The notes under the pieces were generated by a model, which was not told the DNA's origin, did not search any database, and saw only the letters and a program-made list of their open reading frames with translations. Of a stretch of 64,000 nt of DNA, positions 18,918 to 31,692 are shown in pieces. Origin of the DNA: an uncultured Nitrospira sp. (GTDB lineage Bacteria; Nitrospirota; Nitrospiria; Nitrospirales; Nitrospiraceae); assembly GCA_902500825.1 (NCBI GenBank), contig CABVRX010000006.1, forward strand, positions 62,001 to 126,000, given 5' to 3'. Every line of letters starts with the position of its first letter. Within the stretch, counting starts at the first letter, position 1. Position numbers and translations under genes: made by a program.

Positions 18918-19808
18918 GTGCGCTTCATCTCAACCTCAAAAATCCACAATCTCGTCAAAAAACTAACTGCATTATTTAAGAGCAAGAGTATATTCCTCAG
19001 TCGCAAACGGCATATCGTGTTTGTATGCGGAGGGAGTTCTCCTCGAAGCGCCCGCATGCGTTTCCTGCGCTATGCCAAAGCGGAGCTTCCAAATGTAACT
19101 TTCTTTTTGGCTGAAGCTGCTGAAAAGGATTGCCTTTCTCATAGCAAACCAACATTCCTCAACCTTTCAGATTTCGAAGAACTAGTTGCAGCAATCGCAG
19201 ATTGCATCATTTTGTTTCCTGAAACACCTGGCGCCATTGCTGAACTAGGGCTCTTTTCAGGCTCGAAGACGGCTCGAAAGAGTCTACTGGTTGCAATTAA
19301 ATCCGAGTATCAGAGCAATGATTCTTTTATTAATCGAGGTCCATTGGCCACAATTGATAAGGAATCATCATTTGGATCTCGCGTTGTTCTTGACTTCCAG
19401 AACCCTGATTTCTCTCACATCAAGCAAAAGCTAGCTCTGCTAGGGAAGTTCCGTAACCGATCTACCTTCAAGCACGAGACTCTTGCAAAAATGTCGAAGA
19501 GCGAAAAGCTGTTTGTGATCTTGGAAATCATAAATGTTTTTCGTGCACTTGCCTTGCCTGAGATCACTGAGATCTTAACCGCAATATTTTCTAAGCCGTC
19601 CGGCAAAGAGTTGCGATATCTCCTTTCAGTTCTTGTCGCTGCAGGTTATGTCACAAGGAAGGGCGCTGACGAAGAGTACTTCGCATCCGCAGAGCCACCT
19701 CACACATTTCTTGAGTATGAAAGAACTGGAATTGAAGAAATCAAGATATCAGTCTTGGACTACTACCAAAATACCGACGCCATCAGATTTAAGCTTCTGG
19801 AGAGCTAG
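18918..19808 (+). CDS. Retron effector: nucleoside deoxyribosyltransferase-like domain plus winged-helix-like C-terminus
   Basis: The 296-aa protein starts at a GTG with GAAGAGG upstream. Residues 32-130 look like the nucleoside deoxyribosyltransferase fold: HIVFVCGGS (CGG at 37-39), then CIILFPETPGAIAELGLFS with the probable catalytic Glu109, then SFINRGPL. The C-terminal third is helical and resembles the small DNA-binding domain of type II-A retron effectors (Ec86/Sen2 type). In those systems the effector is a toxin held inactive by the reverse transcriptase-msDNA complex and released on phage attack. Order RNA-effector-RT and a 3-nt gap to the RT match. Base composition is visibly more AT-rich than the neighbours, suggesting transfer. 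Its substrate is unknown. Confidence 0.85.
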   Translation: MRFISTSKIHNLVKKLTALFKSKSIFLSRKRHIVFVCGGSSPRSARMRFLRYAKAELPNVTFFLAEAAEKDCLSHSKPTFLNLSDFEELVAAIADCIILFPETPGAIAELGLFSGSKTARKSLLVAIKSEYQSNDSFINRGPLATIDKESSFGSRVVLDFQNPDFSHIKQKLALLGKFRNRSTFKHETLAKMSKSEKLFVILEIINVFRALALPEITEILTAIFSKPSGKELRYLLSVLVAAGYVTRKGADEEYFASAEPPHTFLEYERTGIEEIKISVLDYYQNTDAIRFKLLES

Positions 19809-19811
19809 ACC

Positions 19812-20729
19812 GTGTTCCTCCAAAGACTCGCAAAGATTACAGGACTTTCTGAATCCCACATCGCTAAAATTGCGCGAACGGCCAATCATCGCTATCGAAC
19901 ATACCAAATCCCAAAGAGGAGAGGGGGATTCAGAACAATCGATCATCCCTCAAAACATCTTAAGTTTTTGCAAAGGTGGCTTGTGCGAAACATCTTTTCA
20001 CATACCCCAGTACATCCCTCCGTCTACTCGTATAAAGAAGGGATCAGTATTCGTGAACACGCGCGCCTCCATCTCAACAGCAAATACACCCTGCGCATCG
20101 ATTTTCGAGACTTCTTCCCGTCCATTAGATCCACGGATGTCCAAAAGCTACTTATTGAGAACCGTAGCAGGATTCCCGTCCAGCTATCGGAGCGAGACAT
20201 CCGGATTGTATGCGCCCTGTCTTGCAGGAATGACAAGCTCACGATTGGAGCCCCCTGCTCACCAGCAATTTCAAATGCCATCATGTATGAATTCGACAAG
20301 CACTGGAGTCAAAGAGCCCACAGGTTCGATATCATCTACTCTCGCTATGCAGACGATATTTACTTTTCCACGAATCGACCTGGCGTGCTTTCGAAGGTCC
20401 TATCAGAATTGAAAGATGATCTTAAATCCCGCGCCTCACCACGGCTCGTATTGAACGCAGCAAAAACGATTTTCACTTCAAGAAAACGAAGGAGGGTGAT
20501 CACCGGAATAGTTGTCACATCAAACAGGAAACTGTCATTGGGGCGTGAGAAGAAACGACAGCTGAGAACTCTCGTGCATCTATTTAGCCAGCACCAGCTT
20601 GATCGAGACCGAGCGAAATCTTTACAAGGTTTCTTGTCGTATGCATCGACGATAGAGCCTTTGATTATTACCCGCCTCAAAAAGAAATTTGGAACTGAGT
20701 TGATTGCCAAGATTGTCGAAATGCCTTAG
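19812..20729 (+). CDS. Retron reverse transcriptase
   Basis: The 305-aa protein carries the reverse transcriptase blocks: TLRIDFRDFFPSI (motif A, Asp97), TIGAPCSPAISNAIM (motif B), SRYADDIYFST with YADD at 179-182 (motif C), and NAAKTIF. Retron-specific region Y is present as ITG (230-232, usually VTG), and region X as HARLH at 83-87 (usually NAxxH), so its first residue is changed. There is no maturase or endonuclease domain, which excludes a group II intron. It starts at GTG 3 nt after the effector stop. It would synthesise msDNA from the RNA at 18668-18837 using a 2'-5' branch. Confidence 0.93.
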   Translation: MFLQRLAKITGLSESHIAKIARTANHRYRTYQIPKRRGGFRTIDHPSKHLKFLQRWLVRNIFSHTPVHPSVYSYKEGISIREHARLHLNSKYTLRIDFRDFFPSIRSTDVQKLLIENRSRIPVQLSERDIRIVCALSCRNDKLTIGAPCSPAISNAIMYEFDKHWSQRAHRFDIIYSRYADDIYFSTNRPGVLSKVLSELKDDLKSRASPRLVLNAAKTIFTSRKRRRVITGIVVTSNRKLSLGREKKRQLRTLVHLFSQHQLDRDRAKSLQGFLSYASTIEPLIITRLKKKFGTELIAKIVEMP

Positions 20730-21650: not shown

Positions 21651-22049
21651 ATGCCATCGGACACCCCGGCCTCGCAGCCGAACTGGGAAGATCGCCGCGA
21701 GTTTTATCGCATCACCGTCACTTTACCTATCTGTCTTCAGCCTGAAAGCGACCAGGCTGAGGCGACGCTTATCCAGCGGTCCGTCAACATCAGCGGCGGA
21801 GGCATCGGCGTTACGCTCGACCAGACCTTCGAGGTGAATGAAATTCTCTCCTGCACCCTACTCCTTCCCGGCGAAGTGCTTTTTAAGTCTTACCTCGAAG
21901 TGTTGCGTGTTGATCCCATCACCTACCCATCCAACACCTATCGCCTCCATGGCCGTTTCGCCAGGATGACCAATCAGGATCGAGAACTGCTGATCCGACA
22001 TATAATCCAGTTCCAGCGCGAACACCTCACTAAGCACTACTCCGCCTGA
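21651..22049 (+). CDS. PilZ-domain protein
   Basis: This 132-aa single-domain protein begins with DRREFYRITVTLPICL, where RREFYR fits the RxxxR c-di-GMP-binding motif, and follows with VNISGGGIGVTL, matching the D/NxSxxG motif. PilZ domains bind cyclic di-GMP and pass the signal to partners. A TATACT box at 21635-21640 ends only 10 nt before the ATG. It is one of two adjacent PilZ genes on this strand. Confidence 0.88.
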   Translation: MPSDTPASQPNWEDRREFYRITVTLPICLQPESDQAEATLIQRSVNISGGGIGVTLDQTFEVNEILSCTLLLPGEVLFKSYLEVLRVDPITYPSNTYRLHGRFARMTNQDRELLIRHIIQFQREHLTKHYSA

Positions 22050-22141
22050 GCGGCCACCGCCTTCACTGTGACCAGGATTCCGTTTCGTCCCCGCGAAAGG
22101 GGGATTCATTCTGCCACGCAAGGCCGACTACACTCGCCACC

Positions 22142-22513
22142 ATGGAACCGACACGTCCCTATGTTCGACACCACTATCGAGTTCCGCTCGATGTGCAATA
22201 TCCCGTGATGTTTTCCGATGCGGAAACGATCGCGGAGGGGAAGGTGATGAACCTCACCGTGTTCGGCTGCGCAATCGAGTGTGTCGGCGCCGCGCCTCAG
22301 CGGGCCACCCTCCGCATACGGCTGATCCTCCCGGACCAGGCACAGTCACTCCCGGTCGAAGAAGCGGAAGTCCGATGGGTTCAAGGGAATCGAATAGGGC
22401 TTCAGTTTCATAAAGTGGAGCGGGCGGCGGATTTTCGGCTTCACGGGTTTGTGTGGGATCGGATGGTCGAACGGCTCCGAATGATCACTCAGGAAGGATT
22501 TTCCATCTCTTGA
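22142..22513 (+). CDS. PilZ-domain protein
   Basis: The 123-aa protein starts MEPTRPYVRHHYRVPLDVQYPV, with RHHYR as the RxxxR motif, and has VMNLTVFGCAIECVG, a weaker form of the NxSxxG motif, so c-di-GMP binding is plausible but less certain than for the neighbour. Its 3' end overlaps the convergent UPF0104 gene by 25 nt. A TACACT box at 22129-22134 lies 7 nt before the ATG, compatible with a leaderless mRNA. Confidence 0.82.
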   Translation: MEPTRPYVRHHYRVPLDVQYPVMFSDAETIAEGKVMNLTVFGCAIECVGAAPQRATLRIRLILPDQAQSLPVEEAEVRWVQGNRIGLQFHKVERAADFRLHGFVWDRMVERLRMITQEGFSIS

Positions 22514-23496
22514 TTCTGAGGCACTCTGTTTTTTCCAACCGTTGCCAAACATAACAGTCCGATGCCGATCCACACGAGCTCACGGAACCGCCGCAACAGC
22601 GCGAACGTGATCCCCGTCACGTCACTGTAGCCGAACGCTTGGAGCAACAGGAGATTGCCCGCATCTTGAGCGCCCAGACTGCCGGGGATAAAGAAGGATC
22701 CACCTTTGATAAACACCGCGAGCGCTCCTATGGAGAGAGCAGACGACACACTCATCGAACCGCCGAGTAAATAGATGATCCCGAAGACTTCCATCGATTC
22801 GGCCATCCAGCCCAAAAAGTACACCCCCATCGACACATAAAAGGCCTTTTGATGGTGGCTGTAAAAATTCCGAATCGTCTGGTCGATCGAGCGCAGATGT
22901 TCTTCCTGCGCTTCCAGAGATCGGATTCGTACGCCAAATTTCTTGACCAACGACAGAATCGATGCAAAGAGTCCGCGATGCTGGATAAACACAAACCCTG
23001 CGATTGAACACACCAAGAGTCCGACACTCAGCAGTGCAGCTGTGATCGTCTGTCCTGCCGAGCTTCCGGCACCCAGAATCCAAAAAGCCAGGGCGATTCC
23101 CATGAGGATATAGAACACTTCGGCGATCGTCATGGTCGTCTTCGCAATCACAACGGACGCGGCCCCTTCCGCCATGGGAACGTCATATTTGTTGAGCAGA
23201 TAGACCTTCAGCGGTTCGCCCCCCAGGTAGGCGGTCGGCGTGGTCATATTCACCACTTCGCCGGCGCTCCGAATCGTCAGCAGTCGCCAAAACGGAATCC
23301 TTTGTGCCGCTTGCCCCAACACGATTTTCCACCCATAGGCTTCAACGGAATACATGATGACAGATGGAATCAGGAGGGCGAGCAAGGCTGTCGGACCCAG
23401 TTGCGTCGCGGCCTCATAGATATTGGCGGGACCGATATGCCAGACAAGAAGGCTCAGAACGATGAGGCCCAGGGCTAGTAGGATATAGCGCAACAC
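22489..23496 (-). CDS. UPF0104 / lysylphosphatidylglycerol synthase-type membrane protein
   Basis: This 335-aa protein has about eight membrane segments and the family blocks GEVVNMTTPTAYLGGEPLKVYLL and FIPGSLGAQDAGNLLLLQAFG, typical of the UPF0104 (TIGR00374, flippase-like) proteins related to the membrane part of MprF. Such proteins are often next to lipid head-group genes. The GTG at 23496 (LRYILLALGLIVL) is chosen because upstream sequence, although open to 23679, is the neighbour read out of frame. It follows the CDP-alcohol phosphatidyltransferase by 25 nt and may flip or modify the phosphonolipid predicted for this cluster. Confidence 0.8.
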   Translation of the reverse strand: MLRYILLALGLIVLSLLVWHIGPANIYEAATQLGPTALLALLIPSVIMYSVEAYGWKIVLGQAAQRIPFWRLLTIRSAGEVVNMTTPTAYLGGEPLKVYLLNKYDVPMAEGAASVVIAKTTMTIAEVFYILMGIALAFWILGAGSSAGQTITAALLSVGLLVCSIAGFVFIQHRGLFASILSLVKKFGVRIRSLEAQEEHLRSIDQTIRNFYSHHQKAFYVSMGVYFLGWMAESMEVFGIIYLLGGSMSVSSALSIGALAVFIKGGSFFIPGSLGAQDAGNLLLLQAFGYSDVTGITFALLRRFRELVWIGIGLLCLATVGKNRVPQNQEMENPS

Positions 23497-23521
23497 GTTA
23501 GTCGGATGGCAAACGCGGCAT

Positions 23522-25015
23522 TTATGGCCGAGGAGATGAGATTGCAGATGGGCGGATGACCCAGACCATGGCGCCGGCAAACAGCAAGGAGCCGGCTGCC
23601 GCAAAGAGTAAAAACCAATAGAGTTGATCGAACAGCGCAAAGCCCAGTAAGGCCGCTGAGAAATCGCGGTTGGCGACATTTTTCAGCATGACGTCCGCCC
23701 AGGCTGCATGAGCAGGGGTTCTCCAACCACTCCCCGTTTTAATCTTTTGCGCCTTTTCGACAAGTAGGAATGCGAGGCCGTTGCCGAACACCGCAGCGAC
23801 GCCCAGCGCAAGAGGAACCCAGTCGTCCGCTTGTCCGACGCGCACCGTATAGAGGCCTACGGCGATACCCACAAAAATCGCCATATGCACGATGTTGTCC
23901 AAGACGATATCGAACCAGGCGCCGAACGGCGACTCGGTAAAGGTCAACCGCGCGACTTCACCGTCACAGCAATCAATCACGGCCGCTAATTGAAACAAAA
24001 GCGCTGCCACGATACCGGCGCTGTACGTGCCCATGCCAAACCCAACCGCAGCAACCAGACCGATGAGTCCGGCGAGAACCGTGATGGAATTGGGCGACAG
24101 CCCCATGGCGAGAAACAGGCGTGTGAACCAGCGAGAGACCTTGCGATTGAAATAGCGATCGACGATCCCTTCGAATTCCCCCTTGAGCGAATTGAACAAT
24201 TTCTTTTCAGCTGTTTGGACATCGGACATGGTTCGGACGGGTTGATACCAATGACCCCGCTTCTCTTCGGCTGAGACGACACGCACTCGACCATCCACCG
24301 CGGCCTGCTCAAGCCACTGCTGAATCGGAGGGCTCCCCTTCTGACTCACCGTTTGATTGGCAGTGCTCATCAGACTTGCCGGCACAACCACCAGCTCGGC
24401 GATACGCAAGGCCGGATCGTCGAAACGAGGACGGGCGAAAATCGTCGGGCGACCGGATGAGGCCTTCGATCGCACGCCCTGTACCATGAACTGATCGACT
24501 TGCTGTGGTGGGGCTTGAGAGACCACGATAGCCTGACCGTCCTGGACATCACGCCGCAACCGTTCGATCAACCCTCGGGAGAACACACTCTTGACGCTCG
24601 CAACCAACGCAAAGCCATGCACTTCGGCAGCCAAGGCTTCCCAAGTCCGAGGATCGTCGAGAGGAAATTCACGAATCGGCATCCAACGGACGGGAATCGT
24701 GACGCGCGGCCCTTTACCGAGCGCCTGTTTCAGCTGCTCCTCCTCAGAACCGGAAAGGACGATTAATTGACGAATCCCCGCCCGTTGCAGAGTGAGCACG
24801 GTCCGTTGAAAGAGTCCGATTCCCACGACACTCGTCAGGGGCCCCACGTCGTCGATCTGAGACTCAATCGGACCGCCGAATACCTCGACAGACGGCAGCA
24901 GAATCGCCGTCGCCAATCCGTGGATTTCAGCTCTTCTTTGAAGGGTGCTCTTACTCATGGACAACTGGACCTGCTTGCCGATGGTTCCTTGCGTAGAAAC
25001 TTCCCCATGGAACAC
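23522..25015 (-). CDS. CDP-alcohol phosphatidyltransferase with an N-terminal nucleotidyltransferase-like domain
   Basis: The C-terminal half carries the complete CDP-alcohol phosphatidyltransferase motif, DGEVAR-x8-G-x3-D-x3-D (CDGEVARLTF then GAWFDIVLDN), within about six membrane segments. The first 280 residues resemble a sugar nucleotidyltransferase fold (TAILLPSVEVFGG, VVGIGLFQRTVLTLQRAGI) but lack the usual G-x-G-x-R and PK motifs, so this part is probably not an active pyrophosphorylase. In context it is the best candidate for moving phosphonoethylamine from CMP-aminoethylphosphonate to a lipid. The GTG at 25015 is the longest start; the ATG at 24958 is an alternative. Confidence 0.82.
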   Translation of the reverse strand: MFHGEVSTQGTIGKQVQLSMSKSTLQRRAEIHGLATAILLPSVEVFGGPIESQIDDVGPLTSVVGIGLFQRTVLTLQRAGIRQLIVLSGSEEEQLKQALGKGPRVTIPVRWMPIREFPLDDPRTWEALAAEVHGFALVASVKSVFSRGLIERLRRDVQDGQAIVVSQAPPQQVDQFMVQGVRSKASSGRPTIFARPRFDDPALRIAELVVVPASLMSTANQTVSQKGSPPIQQWLEQAAVDGRVRVVSAEEKRGHWYQPVRTMSDVQTAEKKLFNSLKGEFEGIVDRYFNRKVSRWFTRLFLAMGLSPNSITVLAGLIGLVAAVGFGMGTYSAGIVAALLFQLAAVIDCCDGEVARLTFTESPFGAWFDIVLDNIVHMAIFVGIAVGLYTVRVGQADDWVPLALGVAAVFGNGLAFLLVEKAQKIKTGSGWRTPAHAAWADVMLKNVANRDFSAALLGFALFDQLYWFLLFAAAGSLLFAGAMVWVIRPSAISSPRP

Positions 25016-25036: not shown

Positions 25037-25756
25037 TCATAATCTTGGCAAAACTTCCAATTCAGCTTTTTTTACGTCTTCGATAAAATCGATCTCAGTC
25101 CAGGGCAACCCTCCGATTCGTTCATAACCGACCCGCACGTCCTGAAAATACTGCCGCAGCGCGTCTTCGTACTCCATGTCCCACGATCCTCTGTCGATGT
25201 GGCTACGGAGCGACGAAACGACGCGAGGTGTGTCGGCATGTCGAACTCGAAGAAATCCAACCCCTTCACCGGCGTAGTCGTACCGTTCCGGCATGTTCTT
25301 TGTCAGCGCGACAACTCGCCCCCCCACCGCGACCACCATACATTCTTCACCGGTCTGTTTCACCGACTCATCCATCAATAACGCATTCTCAGAGGGTGAC
25401 GACACCAGACGCCGTAGGATTTCCTGATGGAACAGCACATCGGCATCCATCACGATGGTATCGTCGTCGAGCGCGGTTCGTGCAATCCATAGCGAGGAAA
25501 TGCTGCCTCTGTGAAACTGTTCGTTGACCAGAAACTTCACATCGACGCCGCAGGCATCCTGTTCGACCGCCTCGCGAATCATCTCCTGCTTGTACCCGAC
25601 GACGATCTCCGCCCGGCGAATTCCGACGGAAACCAGAGACTCCAAATAACGACGCAGGAGCGACCGGCCGCCGATCTCGATAAGACATTTCGGACGATGT
25701 TGAGTGACTTCCCACAGGCGCTTTCCCACTCCCGCTGCAAGGATGATTGCCTTCAT
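25037..25756 (-). CDS. NTP transferase, probable phosphonate cytidylyltransferase (PntC-like)
   Basis: The 239-aa protein begins MKAIILAAGVGKRLWEVTQHRPKCLIEIGG, an intact nucleotidyltransferase loop (L-A-A-G-x-G-x-R and PK), with DADVLF as the metal-binding Asp motif. The family includes choline-phosphate and phosphonate cytidylyltransferases. Between an aminoethylphosphonate aminotransferase and a CDP-alcohol phosphatidyltransferase, it would make CMP-aminoethylphosphonate. The ATG overlaps the aminotransferase stop as ATGA. Specificity is inferred from context only. Confidence 0.8.
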   Translation of the reverse strand: MKAIILAAGVGKRLWEVTQHRPKCLIEIGGRSLLRRYLESLVSVGIRRAEIVVGYKQEMIREAVEQDACGVDVKFLVNEQFHRGSISSLWIARTALDDDTIVMDADVLFHQEILRRLVSSPSENALLMDESVKQTGEECMVVAVGGRVVALTKNMPERYDYAGEGVGFLRVRHADTPRVVSSLRSHIDRGSWDMEYEDALRQYFQDVRVGYERIGGLPWTEIDFIEDVKKAELEVLPRL

Positions 25757-26835
25757 GCCGATTTGCACGCATGCTCGAATGCATCAAGAAATCCGCTGAA
25801 TTGCGCCTCGGACAATGCCCCCATATTGGCCACGCGGAAAATCTTGTTTTCCAAGTTGCCTTGGCCGGCATAAATGACATAGCCCTGCTGCTTCAGCCGG
25901 TCATGCAACGTGTGGTAGGAAACGCCATCCGGCAAGTGATAGGCCGTGATGGTATTCGATTGCCGTTCCGCCGGGAGAAGCGCCTGGACACCGAGTTTGG
26001 CCATTCGTTCACGGATCAAGGTGGCCATCTTCTTGTACCGCTGGATGCGATTGGTCACGCCTTCTTCAAGTAGTTCGTCGAGCGCTTCGTCGAAGGCATA
26101 ATAGACCTGCACGGCGGGCGTGAAGGGAATCGTGCCTCGCCCTTCGTTGTCGATGTAATGGGTCAGATGGAGATACCACGAACGCTTCGGGTACGAGCGC
26201 ATTTTCTCGACGAACCCCTTCCGCACCAGCACGAACGAGACGCCCGGGAATCCCTGAATGCATTTTCCCGCCGTCCCCGTCACCATATAGATGTGCGATC
26301 GCGCAATGTCGATCGTCTCACCCGCCAGAGCGCTGACGGCATCGAGCACAAACACCCGATTCTGATTATCGACGATCTCGGCGATCTCATGGATGGGATT
26401 GAGGAGTCCGGTGGTGGTCTCATGATGCACCATGCCGACGGCGTGCACTTCCTGATGCTGCCGCAAGGCAAGCAGCAATCTTTCCGGATCGGGCCGGACC
26501 GTCCATTCGTACTTCAACTCGCTCGCCCCCAAGCGATTGAGGCCCACGATTTGAGACATCCGTTCACCATACACACCGTTGTTGAGGATCAGCATACGAC
26601 GGCCGTGAGGGAGCGACGACATCAAGGCGGCTTCGACGGCAGCCGTCCCTGATCCGGTCATCACGACGGCCACGTAGTCCGATTCGGCTCCGGGGACAAA
26701 GGCCGTAAGCAGTTTGGCTTGGATGCGGTGAAGCAGGTCGGAGAATTCCTCTTCTCGATGACAGATATCGGGGTTCAGCAGTGCCTGCCGTACCCGATCG
26801 GAAACGTTCACCGGCCCAGGATTCAGGAGAACCAC
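25753..26835 (-). CDS. phnW: 2-aminoethylphosphonate--pyruvate aminotransferase-type enzyme (PhnW/AepZ-like)
   Basis: This 360-aa class V aminotransferase starts MVLLNPGPVNVSDRVRQALL and has GSGTAAVEAAL (PLP phosphate site), HHETTTGLLNP, LDAVSALAGE and the PLP lysine in GTAGKCIQG, all as in PhnW proteins. In a biosynthetic cluster it would convert phosphonoacetaldehyde to 2-aminoethylphosphonate. The GTG start has a clear ribosome site (AAGGAGAG). It overlaps the cytidylyltransferase by 4 nt. The direction (making, not degrading, AEP) is inferred from the adjacent decarboxylase and mutase-like genes and the absence of a phosphonatase. Confidence 0.88.
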   Translation of the reverse strand: MVLLNPGPVNVSDRVRQALLNPDICHREEEFSDLLHRIQAKLLTAFVPGAESDYVAVVMTGSGTAAVEAALMSSLPHGRRMLILNNGVYGERMSQIVGLNRLGASELKYEWTVRPDPERLLLALRQHQEVHAVGMVHHETTTGLLNPIHEIAEIVDNQNRVFVLDAVSALAGETIDIARSHIYMVTGTAGKCIQGFPGVSFVLVRKGFVEKMRSYPKRSWYLHLTHYIDNEGRGTIPFTPAVQVYYAFDEALDELLEEGVTNRIQRYKKMATLIRERMAKLGVQALLPAERQSNTITAYHLPDGVSYHTLHDRLKQQGYVIYAGQGNLENKIFRVANMGALSEAQFSGFLDAFEHACKSA

Positions 26836-26856: not shown

Positions 26857-26996
26857 AGGGGGCGTGATGGGCTTCTCTTTATTGCACGCATTGACCGAGC
26901 ACGCTCATTTCACCCACCTACCCCACGTCGCCGAGACTCCGTCGTGCCCGAGTCGTGCGCGGTCAGCGAGCACAGGGGAAGCTCGCCGCGCCCCCT
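26857..26996. repeat. Palindromic intergenic element, copy C
   Basis: This 140-bp element has 23-nt outer arms starting AGGGGGCG (26857) and ending CGCCCCCT (26996). All six arm differences are transitions and five can pair as G-U on the plus strand. The inner stem pairs TGACCGAGCAC with GTGCGCGGTCA; relative to copy A two base pairs have changed on both sides, which is covariation. The right end, CCCTA, supplies the TAG stop of the neighbouring decarboxylase beta-subunit gene, just as copy A does for cstA. Confidence 0.8.
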
Positions 26997-27576
26997 ATCC
27001 CTCAATCGCTTTCATGAACCGGCGGGTGATGTCCGGTGGATCGAGCAAGACGCGGCCGGCATCTTCCACAAATTCGTTCACCTTGACGAGCAACATGCTG
27101 GGCCCATCCTTCTTCAGCATATCTTTGAACTCGTAGATGAGATCGTCGCGATCAAGCACCCGTTCCACATTCACATAGCCCGCCGACTTCGCGACCTTTT
27201 CCAGCGGCACCACGTTGGAGATCGTGGGCTGGTTCCCGGTCGTTCCGTACACCTCATTGTCGAATACGACGTGGATAAAGTTTTTCGGTTTCAACGCGCC
27301 GACCGTCGCAAGTGTGCCCATCCCCATCAATACATTCCCGTCGCCGTCGAAGGTAATCACCTGTTTATTCGGCTTTGCGAGTGCGACACCGAGTGCGATC
27401 GCCGGAGCATTCCCCATGGAGCCGATCATGTAGAAATGGGTGGAACGATCCGCGATCTTGTGCGCCTCGCGCGAGGGAAACCCGTTGCAGATAATGACGG
27501 GCTGATCGGTCAGCAGCTCCAGCAAAGCCGCCATCGCCTGTGCTCGGCTGATCAATGTGCCTTGCTCGGGCCTCAT
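26995..27576 (-). CDS. Phosphonopyruvate decarboxylase, beta (ThDP-binding) subunit
   Basis: The 193-aa protein matches the C-terminal half of phosphonopyruvate/sulfopyruvate decarboxylases: IICNGFPSREAH, GSMGNAPAIALGVAL and the ThDP motif TFDGDGNVLMGMGTLATVG with VVFDNEVYGTTGNQPT. It would form an active site with the alpha subunit encoded just upstream and release CO2 from phosphonopyruvate to give phosphonoacetaldehyde, pulling the unfavourable mutase reaction forward. The ATG at 27576 overlaps the alpha stop as ATGA. Sulfopyruvate decarboxylase is the main alternative, but the neighbours are phosphonate genes. Its stop codon lies inside element C. Confidence 0.85.
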   Translation of the reverse strand: MRPEQGTLISRAQAMAALLELLTDQPVIICNGFPSREAHKIADRSTHFYMIGSMGNAPAIALGVALAKPNKQVITFDGDGNVLMGMGTLATVGALKPKNFIHVVFDNEVYGTTGNQPTISNVVPLEKVAKSAGYVNVERVLDRDDLIYEFKDMLKKDGPSMLLVKVNEFVEDAGRVLLDPPDITRRFMKAIEG

Positions 27577-28070
27577 GGATGCAACCCTTTCACGACGCCC
27601 TTGGTAATGAACAACGCGACAGGAATCTGTTGCTGCATGAACGTCTGGGCCACCCATCTGAAATCTTCGAGTGCCGTTTTTTCGGTTAAGGCACGATGCG
27701 GAATTTTGACGGTATCGAGCAATTGCGGCATTACTTCTCCCATCACCAAATGTTCGGGAGCATCCTTTCCCCCTTGGCCCCGCCATGAAACAATCAGGAT
27801 GCAGGGTTGTTTATAAATCATATTCAAAGAAATGAGCGTATTGAGCGAGGTGCCGAGTCCTGAATTCTGCATGAGGACGGCGGGTGTTTTTCCCGCCAGA
27901 TACGCGCCCGCGGCCATACCGACCGCTTCATCCTCACGAACCGCGGGAGTGTAGAGCCGACGGTTCATGAGCTCTGCAATGATCCCACCGAGGATCGAAT
28001 CCGGTACGCCGGTGAAAAAATTGACTCCCATATCCTGCATGGTTTGCACGAACACGTCGCTTTCAATCAC
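27573..28070 (-). CDS. Phosphonopyruvate decarboxylase, alpha (pyrimidine-binding) subunit
   Basis: The 165-aa product matches the N-terminal PYR domain of the decarboxylase: FFTGVPDSILGGII, AVREDEAVGMAAGAYLAGKTPAVLMQNSG with the ThDP-activating Glu, and WRGQGGKDAPEHLVMG. In many organisms alpha and beta parts are one chain; here they are separate genes. I prefer the GTG at 28070, which has AAGGGG 8 nt upstream, over the GTG at 28100. It is the first gene of the minus-strand phosphonate operon and is divergent from a small secreted-protein gene. Confidence 0.85.
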   Translation of the reverse strand: MIESDVFVQTMQDMGVNFFTGVPDSILGGIIAELMNRRLYTPAVREDEAVGMAAGAYLAGKTPAVLMQNSGLGTSLNTLISLNMIYKQPCILIVSWRGQGGKDAPEHLVMGEVMPQLLDTVKIPHRALTEKTALEDFRWVAQTFMQQQIPVALFITKGVVKGLHP

Positions 28071-28227
28071 TAGGAGTTCCCCTTGAAGATTGATATGCAC
28101 CCGCCAAAAGCCGGCGCATTATAAGATACGCCTAGCGGGGTTCTCAAGAAAGATTCGTGGTGGAGTTGACTTCACTCGTATGTTCGCGTTAGTGCCAATA
28201 GGGTTATCGCCAGATCCGTCTGCAAAG

Positions 28228-28838: not shown

Positions 28839-30518
28839 ATGACTAACGCTGCAAAACTCCGAGCTGCATTGAAACGACCGGGTGCCTTGAAAATAGTCGG
28901 GGCTCACGATGCACTCAGCGCCCGTCTCATCGAACGCGCCGGTTTCGACGGTGTCTGGGCGAGCGGCTTCGCCATTTCGGCTTCGCTGAAATGTATCCCC
29001 GACGCCAGCTTTATCACCTCGAGCGAGCAACTCGATGTCGAACGGAATATCGTTGAGGCCGTGAACATTCCTGTGATCGCTGATTGCGACACCGGATATG
29101 GCAATGCGCTGAATGTCATGCGGACCGTCACCGACCGCGAGCGGGCCGGCGTGGCGGCGATTTGCATTGAAGACAACGTCTATCCAAAGCGCTGCAGTTT
29201 CTACGCAGGCGTTCGACGGGAATTAATCCCCATTGAAGAGCACTGCGGTAAGATTCGAGCGGCGAAAGCGGCTCAGGTTTTCCCGGACTTCATGATCATC
29301 GCCAGAACCGAGGCCCTCATTGCCGGGTGGGGACAGGAAGAAGCGTTGAAACGGGCTGAAGCCTATGCAGACGCAGGCGCCGACGCAGTCCTCATCCATT
29401 CGAAGTCGAAAAAGTTCGACGAACTGAAGGCCGTTTACAAATTGTGGTCCGGGCGCGTCCCGTTGGTCGTGGTTCCCACGATTTTCGACCAAACCACCGC
29501 GGCGGAAATGGAAGAAGCAGGAGCAAAGATCATTATCTACGCCAATCAACCGGTACGGGCGGCTATTCGTGCGATGGCAGACACCCTGGATCTCATCAAG
29601 AAGGACACGCGCCCGGGAGCGGCGAACGAGCGAATCGTCACCCTACCCGACGTGTATGACATTGTCGGTGTCCCGCAAATGGAGCAAGACGAGAAACAGT
29701 TCCTGCCGGTGGGTAGCGAACGAATCACTGCGATTATCGCTGCCGCCGGATTCGAAAAACAGCTCCTGCCGTTGATCGAGGATAAGCCGAAGTGTTTGCT
29801 CGACATTAAAGGGAAAACCATCCTGGATCGCCAGATCAGCGCGCTCAACGAATGCGACATCAAAGACATTGCGTTGGTTCGCGGGTACAAAAAGGAGGCG
29901 ATCTCGCTCCCCAATATCCGCTACTATGACAACGATCGTTACGAGGAAACCGGCGAACTCGCGTCGCTCTTCTGTGCCGAAAATGAGTTACGAGGGCGAA
30001 CCATCGTTTTGTACGGCGATATTATCTTTGACACGTCGATTCTTGAAAAGTTGCTGAAGAGTCCCGCCGACATTACTCTGGTCGTCGATCTGGCCTGGTT
30101 TGATCAGGAACAACGCAATGCCCAGCCGACCCATCTTAATCCGGACCTTGTCTCACTGGCCGCCCCTCCGGGCAAAAGCTATTTGTCCCGATTTGTGATG
30201 CCGGAAGGTGAGCACCAGGTCATGAAGATCGGCCAGCAACTTCCGCACGAACTGGCACATGGTGAATTCATCGGCATGGCCATGTTCTCAGAGAAGGGCA
30301 CCCAGGCCCTTTGCGAGTGCTACCACAGGATCCACAAACAACATCAGTCTTCCCCGTTCCACGAGTCTGCGAGCCTTACCAAGGCGTCTTTCACCGACAT
30401 GCTGCAAGAACTGATTGACCAGGGCTATCGCATCCAAGCCGTACCGATTTTTAAGGGCTGGATGGAAGTCGATTCCTTCGAAGAGTACCAAAAAGCCTGG
30501 GCAAAGATTCGGCAGTAA
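28839..30518 (+). CDS. PEP mutase-like protein fused to a nucleotidyltransferase-like domain
   Basis: Residues 1-285 belong to the PEP mutase/isocitrate lyase superfamily: GVWASGFAISASL (Trp40, Ser42, Gly43), Asp55, ADCDTGYGN (Asp82, Asp84), Glu111, IARTEAL (Arg156) and Ser188. PEP mutase rearranges phosphoenolpyruvate to phosphonopyruvate. The signature EDKxxPKxNS reads EDNVYPKRCS (111-120): the Asn is Cys119, as in lyases, and the first Lys is Asn113. Residues 294-559 look like a sugar/choline-phosphate nucleotidyltransferase (ITAIIAAAGF, then DKPKCLLDIKGKT; YGDIIFD), with the G-x-G-x-R loop lost. Context (decarboxylase, aminotransferase, cytidylyltransferase) favours a mutase role, but the altered motif leaves room for a lyase. 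Confidence 0.8.
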   Translation: MTNAAKLRAALKRPGALKIVGAHDALSARLIERAGFDGVWASGFAISASLKCIPDASFITSSEQLDVERNIVEAVNIPVIADCDTGYGNALNVMRTVTDRERAGVAAICIEDNVYPKRCSFYAGVRRELIPIEEHCGKIRAAKAAQVFPDFMIIARTEALIAGWGQEEALKRAEAYADAGADAVLIHSKSKKFDELKAVYKLWSGRVPLVVVPTIFDQTTAAEMEEAGAKIIIYANQPVRAAIRAMADTLDLIKKDTRPGAANERIVTLPDVYDIVGVPQMEQDEKQFLPVGSERITAIIAAAGFEKQLLPLIEDKPKCLLDIKGKTILDRQISALNECDIKDIALVRGYKKEAISLPNIRYYDNDRYEETGELASLFCAENELRGRTIVLYGDIIFDTSILEKLLKSPADITLVVDLAWFDQEQRNAQPTHLNPDLVSLAAPPGKSYLSRFVMPEGEHQVMKIGQQLPHELAHGEFIGMAMFSEKGTQALCECYHRIHKQHQSSPFHESASLTKASFTDMLQELIDQGYRIQAVPIFKGWMEVDSFEEYQKAWAKIRQ

Positions 30519-30643: not shown

Positions 30644-31051
30644 ATGATGGTGAAACTGACGATGAGTGGCCGAAAATCTTACGTGCCTTTAGATAACCGT
30701 TACACCGAACGTGTTGCCGTCACATGTCGAGTGCACTATGTCGGTGAAGTTCCGACGCAGCCTCACCAAGGCGACGGACTCACAAAAAACATATCCGTTT
30801 CTGGTTGCCACATCATCAGCGACCGTCCGGTGACACGCGGAACATTATTGACTCTTAGCATTGCGCTCCCCGATGGACTACCTCAACTTTTATTGAAGTC
30901 GGCGCATGTTGTGTGGGTATCGGGTTGTCAGTTTTCTGTCCGATTCATGGATCTGAGCCAAGACCATCGAAAGCGGCTACAATCGTTCATTTGGAAAAGC
31001 ATCTCTCATCACACCGTGAGTGACCAACGGACGCGATTCCGACTGATGTAG
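30644..31051 (+). CDS. PilZ-domain protein
   Basis: The 135-aa protein has an N-terminal Arg-containing segment (NRYTERVAVTCRVHYVG) and KNISVSGCHIIS, matching the NxSxxG part of PilZ. The usual RxxxR is spread (R-Y-T-E-R), which fits. It ends with a basic tail. It is followed 257 bp later by another PilZ gene. The upstream 125 bp after the phosphonate fusion gene hold no feature I can support. A c-di-GMP role is inferred from the family. Confidence 0.85.
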   Translation: MMVKLTMSGRKSYVPLDNRYTERVAVTCRVHYVGEVPTQPHQGDGLTKNISVSGCHIISDRPVTRGTLLTLSIALPDGLPQLLLKSAHVVWVSGCQFSVRFMDLSQDHRKRLQSFIWKSISHHTVSDQRTRFRLM

Positions 31052-31308
31052 CTCCGTCCTTGCCTTCCTATGTTGTTGCGATACTTTTCATGAGCACGCT
31101 TAGACTGCTCATCTAGCTCACAAGATTTTGCATACAATTCCCTGAACCAGGTCTCTCCGCACAACTTCTACCGTAAGGATTTATTCATTATCCCCCTTCC
31201 GGGTTGGAGACTCCCCCTCATCTAGTGGGAAGGCAAGATTGACACTCAACGCTATCCTTCACTCATACGAAGTCTCCGAATATAGGCATGCAGCCAGGAG
31301 GTGTAACA
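31052..31308 (+). promoter_or_regulatory. Intergenic region upstream of a PilZ gene with a candidate -35 box
   Basis: This 257-bp AT-richer gap carries TTGACA at 31239-31244 with a poor -10 (TCATAC) 18 bp on. The downstream ATG at 31309 has a consensus AGGAGG ribosome site, so this leader is conventional, unlike several other genes in the window. No RNA gene was recognised. Confidence 0.35.
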
Positions 31309-31692
31309 ATGAGACAGATGAAGCATTTGAGACGATCAGAAACAACGCACTCACCTCATTCCATTGAGCGCCGCAAAAGGAGAAGAACTTGTGCCTCTTT
31401 TAGCCTGATGTATTCAGGAATCAACGGAGACGACGTTCTCATTGGCGACGGTAGTGCCGTCGATCTATCCGAGGACGGATTGGGCATTCGTGGAAATTGT
31501 CCAGTCAATGTCGGTATGGAGTTGACCCTGTTTTTATATCTCCTGGACGATGAGGAACCTCTGTTCGTTTCTGAAGCAACGGTAGCCTGGACAGCGGGAT
31601 CTTTGTTCGGCGTGGTAGTGAAAGAAGTAAGCCTCCGTGATAGCGATCGTATTCTGTCGTTTCTCCGTATCCAATCGGTAGGCCAAGCCTAG
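31309..31692 (+). CDS. PilZ-domain protein
   Basis: The ATG at 31309 has AGGAGG 7 nt upstream, deciding it over the in-frame 31288. The 127-aa protein has a basic RRKRRRTCASFSLMYSG segment (RxxxR-like) and AVDLSEDGLGIRGN, a good D-x-S-x-x-G motif, so it should bind cyclic di-GMP. It ends with a short helical tail. A perfect 8-bp hairpin (GACCAACT-CGC-AGTTGGTC, 31704-31722) follows the stop and may end transcription, though it lacks a T-run. Confidence 0.86.
   Translation: MRQMKHLRRSETTHSPHSIERRKRRRTCASFSLMYSGINGDDVLIGDGSAVDLSEDGLGIRGNCPVNVGMELTLFLYLLDDEEPLFVSEATVAWTAGSLFGVVVKEVSLRDSDRILSFLRIQSVGQA

Follow-up and report, generated by a model that had tools for sequence, protein, structure and literature searches.

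Phosphoenolpyruvate (PEP) mutase opens the route to almost every biological compound with a carbon-phosphorus (C-P) bond, and the locus described here raises the question of what a protein does that resembles this enzyme and carries a cysteine in its signature motif. In the window, i.e., the whole 64,000-nucleotide stretch of DNA from an uncultured Nitrospira sp. that we analyzed, an open reading frame of 559 amino acids spans positions 28839-30518 of the plus strand and encodes an N-terminal PEP_mutase domain followed by a C-terminal MobA-like NTP_transf_3 domain (Pfam search). Its residues 111-120 read EDNVYPKRCS where the canonical form is EDKxxxxxNS, and the codon of Cys119 is TGC. Rereading of the frame and motif found both, together with Cys119 and Asn113, exactly as a first-pass annotation had described them, and alignment confirmed its statement that the other active-site residues D55, D82, D84, E111, R156, and S188 are kept. 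We infer, with a probability of roughly 0.85, that this protein is a PEP mutase converting PEP to phosphonopyruvate and belongs to a deep-branching, nucleotidyltransferase-fused Cys-type subfamily. The basis of this reading is the fold, the pocket residues, the genomic context, mutual exclusivity with and replacement by the canonical enzyme, and phylogeny. The gene is composed as follows:

28839..29714, plus strand: Cys-type PEP mutase domain, residues 1-292 (Pfam PEP_mutase 196.5 bits; NCBIfam TIGR02320 269 bits; AlphaFold model)
29169..29198, plus strand: variant signature EDNVYPKRCS (Cys119 codon 29193-29195, Asn113 codon 29175-29177)
29724..30518, plus strand: C-terminal nucleotidyltransferase (NTP_transf_3) domain, without the GxGxR arginine

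Because it lacks the GxGxR arginine, the nucleotidyltransferase activity of the fused domain is uncertain; the same arginine is absent from the canonical fusions that we compared (L056-L073 and L187-L198).

The best family match of the window protein is the NCBIfam PEP_mutase model TIGR02320, but its score of 269-272 bits falls below the equivalog cutoff of 319.55, so that routine annotation would not name the protein confidently; second comes Pphn_pyruv_hyd with 257 bits. By sequence, the closest solved structures are the PEP mutase 5unc and then phosphonopyruvate hydrolase and the mollusc PEP mutase, and the AlphaFold model (pLDDT 88.5) is likewise nearest to 5unc (TM 0.97 by target length, 1.0-1.3 A, 51% identity). 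Besides the active-site residues listed above, H187, S120, and K117 are kept, while T157, F44, and a one-residue insertion before D55 set the protein apart from the mollusc enzyme; like the fusion, these features had not been listed in the first-pass annotation. The motif reads EDN[VI]YPKRCS at all 30 loci at which we read it in the window genome and 29 close relatives, and it is retained, in a Y or F variant, by all of 12 more distant Nitrospirales sequences with identities as low as 62%. The Cys is therefore neither a chance event nor an assembly error.

Divergently upstream of the mutase gene lies a minus-strand operon that runs from 28100 down to 22489:

27573..28100, minus strand: ppdA, TPP-binding N-terminal half or alpha subunit of phosphonopyruvate (or sulfopyruvate) decarboxylase, transcribed away from the mutase gene (TIGR03297 132.6, TIGR03845 115.1 bits)
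26995..27576, minus strand: ppdB, TPP-binding C-terminal half or beta subunit (TIGR03846 183.6, TIGR03297 172 bits); probable ATG at 27576, judged from the translation, overlapping the ppdA stop
25753..26835, minus strand: 2-aminoethylphosphonate aminotransferase, PhnW/AepZ type (TIGR03301 353.3 bits, cutoff 360.8)
25037..25768, minus strand: second nucleotidyltransferase, NTP2, a candidate CTP:AEP cytidylyltransferase (Pfam NTP_transferase / NTP_transf_3)
23522..25015, minus strand: CDP-alcohol phosphotransferase with an N-terminal IPCT/DIPP-synthase-like region (PF01066, NF041135)
22489..23679, minus strand: flippase-like membrane protein, LPG_synthase_TM / HpnL-like (PF03706, TIGR03476)

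The phosphonate locus is flanked on both sides by small PilZ or PilZ-like genes (21651-22513 and 30644-31692, the two genes at the latter position being confirmed as PilZ). Farther away, at 18918-20729 on the plus strand, the window contains a type II-A retron-like pair of a nucleoside-deoxyribosyltransferase-like gene (NDT_II-A, PADLOC 185 bits) followed by an RT_II-A reverse transcriptase (352 bits).

A whole-genome search across 147 related genomes, in which the kinds of mutase were told apart by identity and TIGR02320 score, revealed two separated kinds that are either at least 62% identical to the window protein or only 33-39% identical to it over the same fusion. The scores are bimodal, with 46 genomes at 226-292 bits (Cys-type) and 86 at 380-400 bits (canonical, EDK/NS), and these assignments rest on motifs for a large share of loci and on the score for the remainder. 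A single genome (G105) is intermediate, with 44% identity, 316.5 bits, and the motif EDKLFPKVNS, while the motif of the canonical kind was EDK[LV]FPKTNS at 29 plus 19 loci read. No genome has both kinds, whereas about 27 would be expected if they occurred independently (Fisher p 2e-25, uncorrected for kinship); no second, canonical PEP mutase was found in the window genome or in any of the 46 Cys-type genomes. Two canonical-scoring PEP mutases occur in a single relative (G037), where the additional copy (L324, G037:C5:56062-56910) is located in a 479-aa frame without a match to the EDKxxPKxNS pattern. In two others, G074 and G077 (L241, L242, and L259; around 90-94% complete), the ppd operon is intact and no PEP mutase was detected, which probably reflects assembly gaps and possibly true loss.

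The same orthologous operon of ppdA, ppdB, aminotransferase, NTP2, CDP-alcohol phosphotransferase, and flippase genes was present in 40 further genomes that we fetched, irrespective of whether their mutase is canonical, Cys-type, or not detected. On the tree of the operon's aminotransferase, well-supported branches record at least 8 switches in the type of mutase (13 by parsimony), so that the two kinds appear to have been exchanged repeatedly on one downstream pathway. Traces of such exchanges persist as decayed pieces of a Cys-type gene beside the operon, at the place of the window gene, in three genomes whose canonical mutase is now encoded elsewhere: G054 (two pieces, 464 bp with 74% and 94 bp with 86% DNA identity, disrupted by stop codons, frameshifts, and a large deletion inside the gene), G041 (two pieces, 102 bp with 83% and 125 bp with 74%), and G019 (one piece, 89 bp with 83%). 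A fainter trace (55 bp at 78%, E 3e-5) was found in G074, the assembly of which yielded no mutase; a reversed-sequence control of this search gave zero matches. These four genomes adjoin one another in the aminotransferase tree, within a Cys-type group. Exclusivity, at least 8 swaps on the operon tree, and the gene remnants together strongly imply that the Cys-type protein works as a PEP mutase and not as a lyase or hydrolase. The first-pass annotation had left three options open, of which a new mutase subtype is well supported by phylogeny, pocket, operon, and mutual replacement, while a phosphonopyruvate lyase or a different enzyme feeding the pathway is disfavored because 46 genomes offer no candidate other than the Cys-type that could supply the operon with phosphonopyruvate, and the operon is fed by a canonical mutase in sister genomes.

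In a tree built without the motif columns and with a lyase outgroup, the canonical mutases come out as a single clade that excludes the Cys-type (support 100/99), and both kinds together form a clade apart from the lyases (support 100/99). The tree shows the Cys-type as a grade surrounding the canonical clade, though a single Cys-type group is not rejected (AU p 0.218). In both cases, since the lyases of the superfamily carry Cys at the same place, Cys would most simply be ancestral and the EDK/NS form later, Asn having arisen once, on the branch that leads to the canonical mutases. A late Asn-to-Cys substitution inside the known mutases was rejected by trees with and without the motif columns, and because the Cys-type is a widespread lineage of its own that branches outside the canonical clade, a change from Asn to Cys probably gets the direction wrong. 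A bolder proposal, which we consider unlikely, is that the Cys-type is the surviving ancestral mutase that bridges C-C lyases and known mutases and that Cys119 is chemically active, as a proton relay or via a transient S-phosphocysteine, and is more than a phosphate ligand. If true, phosphonopyruvate would be made by a route closed to the Asn enzymes, possibly with residual lyase activity.

For the active site, we compared alignment columns of the Cys-type with those of 57 canonical mutases and 16 lyases, in groups set by motif, so that the invariance of Cys119 in this comparison is by construction and the other positions were free to vary. Wherever a pocket position distinguishes mutases from lyases, the Cys-type sides with the mutases (W40, S120, E158, H187, V212-P213-T214, A235-N236, and R240), and at S188-K189 it mostly does so. 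All metal and phosphoryl ligands (D58, D85, D87, E114, K120, S123, R159, and H190 in mollusc numbering) are conserved, also across phyla, where the mutase domain has around 65% mean column identity. In the mollusc enzyme, Asp85, Asp58, Asp87, and Glu114 organize Mg, while Arg159 and His190 hold the phosphoryl group, perhaps with Asn122 and Ser123 (PMC7916636). Against the mutase reading stands the gating loop that decides the chemistry, which is lyase-like (C119, R118, and N113, the latter being Gln in lyases), as is T157, which the Cys-type nearly always has and which occurs in 15 of the 57 canonical sequences. The same is true for the altered position 122, where Asn122Thr is the change that most authors blame for hydrolase behavior, albeit not without dispute (PMC7916636), and for Phe44, which is common to the hydrolase and many lyases where mutases have Leu. 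R127 is peculiar to the Cys-type, with Gln in canonical mutases and mostly Lys in lyases. The idea of C52 as an invariant partner of C119 holds in Nitrospirota and fails across phyla, and it was dropped.

It is on these loop residues that a very unlikely alternative builds, namely that the protein is a C-C lyase of the methylisocitrate/dimethylmalate type on an acquired PEP-mutase-like scaffold with Cys119 as general acid. C119, R118, N113, and T157 all match lyases, and the equivalent cysteine of isocitrate lyase is the catalytic acid, with Cys191Ser being dead (PMC7609661). Of the lyase hallmark KRCG(H/F), the window protein has the Cys, followed by Ser instead of Gly. However, W, H, and V occupy positions 40, 187, and 212 in place of the lyases' Tyr/Phe, Glu/Asp, and Asn, and all pocket positions that separate the two groups are of the mutase type. 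Furthermore, the window genome already encodes a PrpB-like methylisocitrate lyase (motif EDQDTAKKCG), the gene of which adjoins those for citrate synthase and a PrpD-like protein; besides this enzyme and a ketopantoate hydroxymethyltransferase-like protein, no further superfamily members were found there. If the protein were a lyase, moreover, 46 phosphonate operons would have no mutase at all, and a mutase could not take its place or be replaced by it.

Even less probable is a catabolic phosphonopyruvate hydrolase, as might be suspected from the loss of Asn at position 122, where the Variovorax enzyme has Thr, from F44 shared with that enzyme, and from Pphn_pyruv_hyd as the second-best family match. 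The window protein has Cys and not Thr at this position, its neighbors are biosynthetic (decarboxylase, nucleotidyltransferase, and phosphotransferase), and replacement by a canonical mutase would go unexplained; in a quick tree, the hydrolase groups on a long branch with canonical mutases, outside the Cys-type.

We regard as similarly improbable that the operon serves a sulfonate (sulfopyruvate/taurine) route and that the protein acts outside C-P synthesis. PpdA and PpdB score about equally as halves of phosphonopyruvate and sulfopyruvate decarboxylase, which also counts against the mutase reading, and PpdB even scores higher as the sulfopyruvate decarboxylase beta subunit (183.6 vs 172 bits). 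Yet in 58 of the 86 canonical genomes, no decarboxylase other than the two-subunit PpdAB was found, and this connects the operon with phosphonopyruvate. Orthologous operons coexist there with an EDKLFPKTNS mutase, mostly as the sole source of a decarboxylase, and nucleotidyl and CDP-alcohol chemistry requires a phospho- or phosphono-group. An extra single-chain phosphonopyruvate decarboxylase occurs in 22 canonical and no Cys-type genomes; it adjoins the canonical mutase in the cases viewed (e.g., L059:7741-8919 and L062:7689-8819), on top of PpdAB, and may mark a second phosphonate product. Finally, that the mutase domain is a dead scaffold for the fused nucleotidyltransferase, as its non-canonical motif might suggest, has a negligible chance given that this partner itself lacks GxGxR and that the metal and phosphoryl ligands of the mutase are conserved across phyla.

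As a PEP mutase, the window protein would bind PEP through Mg, held by D55, D82, D84, and E111, and a clamp of R156, H187, S120, and K117, and the loop bearing Cys119 would close over the bound substrate. Then, in the manner of known mutases, the phosphoryl group would be shifted from oxygen onto carbon, the Cys119 thiol being located where the mollusc enzyme has the Asn122 amide, with N113 in place of K116 and R127 in place of Gln. PpdAB would decarboxylate phosphonopyruvate to phosphonoacetaldehyde and thereby pull the unfavorable equilibrium, and the aminotransferase would convert phosphonoacetaldehyde to 2-aminoethylphosphonate (AEP). Probably, activation by the nucleotidyltransferases follows, and the CDP-alcohol phosphotransferase would load AEP onto a lipid or surface molecule.

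Judged by sequence, the Cys-type is a coherent subfamily with the signature EDN[VI][FY]PKRCS that extends over five or more bacterial phyla, and its genes typically adjoin those of a two-subunit phosphonopyruvate decarboxylase. When 84,980 species were scanned, loci sharing 54-60% identity turned up in Binatota, Myxococcota, Planctomycetota, Acidobacteriota, and candidate phyla, though the scan patterns contained Cys and Thr, so that motif retention there is no evidence. Named carriers include the myxococcota Sorangium cellulosum and Minicystis rosea as well as the cultured Nitrospira moscoviensis NSP M-1. Profile searches free of motif bias added 294 genomes of Planctomycetota, in which Cys-type matches outnumber canonical ones (20 vs 7), and 284 of Myxococcota, where canonical matches prevail and 2 are Cys-type. 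Among the 20 planctomycetal matches, 17 have the long fused form, 14 of these with ppdA and/or ppdB in the short flank; the variants EDNPFPKECS and EDSRHPKRCS were also met. Outside Nitrospirota, a co-directional order of the Cys-type gene, ppdA, ppdB, (aminotransferase), and NTP2 is frequent, but in Binatota and several Nitrospirota, the Cys-type gene does not adjoin the ppd genes, which speaks against the mutase reading.

The Cys-type is missed by surveys based on EDKxxxxxNS and by the cutoff of the NCBI model. Of 905 fused PEP mutase-MobA-like proteins, Rice et al. 2019 retained the 883 that bear the motif and removed the other 22 as presumed non-mutases (PMC6697681), and a 2025 survey of actinomycetes demanded a perfect EDKX5NS match (PMC12723261). 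Because a widespread subfamily fails this motif, phosphonate producers would be undercounted among nitrite oxidizers, planctomycetes, and myxobacteria; in our sample of Planctomycetota, PEP-mutase-bearing genomes are mostly Cys-type. Searches of the non-subscription literature for a Cys form of PEP mutase, Nitrospira phosphonates, and motif variants gave nothing relevant. The kind of enzyme is known; what appears to be new is the variant itself, how widely it is distributed, and that it branches outside the canonical clade. The dispute about position 122 as the switch between mutase and hydrolase becomes testable with natural Asn, Thr, and Cys versions of one scaffold and the lyase Cys as outgroup.

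Among known systems, the fusions of Rice et al. 2019 (PMC6697681) have the same order of PEP_mutase and NTP_transf_3 domains with phosphonate pathway genes nearby, and Cys-type fusions would fall into the motif-less set that was removed. Phosphonopyruvate hydrolase (Variovorax, 2dua) shares the fold, H187/R156, and Phe44 with the Cys-type but differs by EDKxxPKDTS, by Gly235 instead of A235, and by its catabolic role as opposed to a biosynthetic context. The likeness to methylisocitrate/isocitrate lyases (EDQVxPKRCGH) comprises the loop Cys, KRC, Asn/Gln after ED, and Thr after the active-site Arg, whereas these enzymes have Tyr/Phe, Gly, Asp, Glu/Asp, and Asn at positions 40, 120, 158, 187, and 212 and form a separate clade. 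With PEP mutase itself (PepM/Ppm; Mytilus edulis 1pym/1m1b and Streptomyces platensis 5unc), the Cys-type has in common the fold (TM 0.97), the metal acids, the equivalents of R159, H190, S123, and K120, W44, the V-P-T and A-N motifs, and the pathway context; it differs by EDN[VI][FY]PKRCS for EDKxxxxxNS, Phe for Leu48, Arg127 for Gln, usually Thr for Val/Ile160, often a one-residue insertion before D58, and its position outside the canonical clade.
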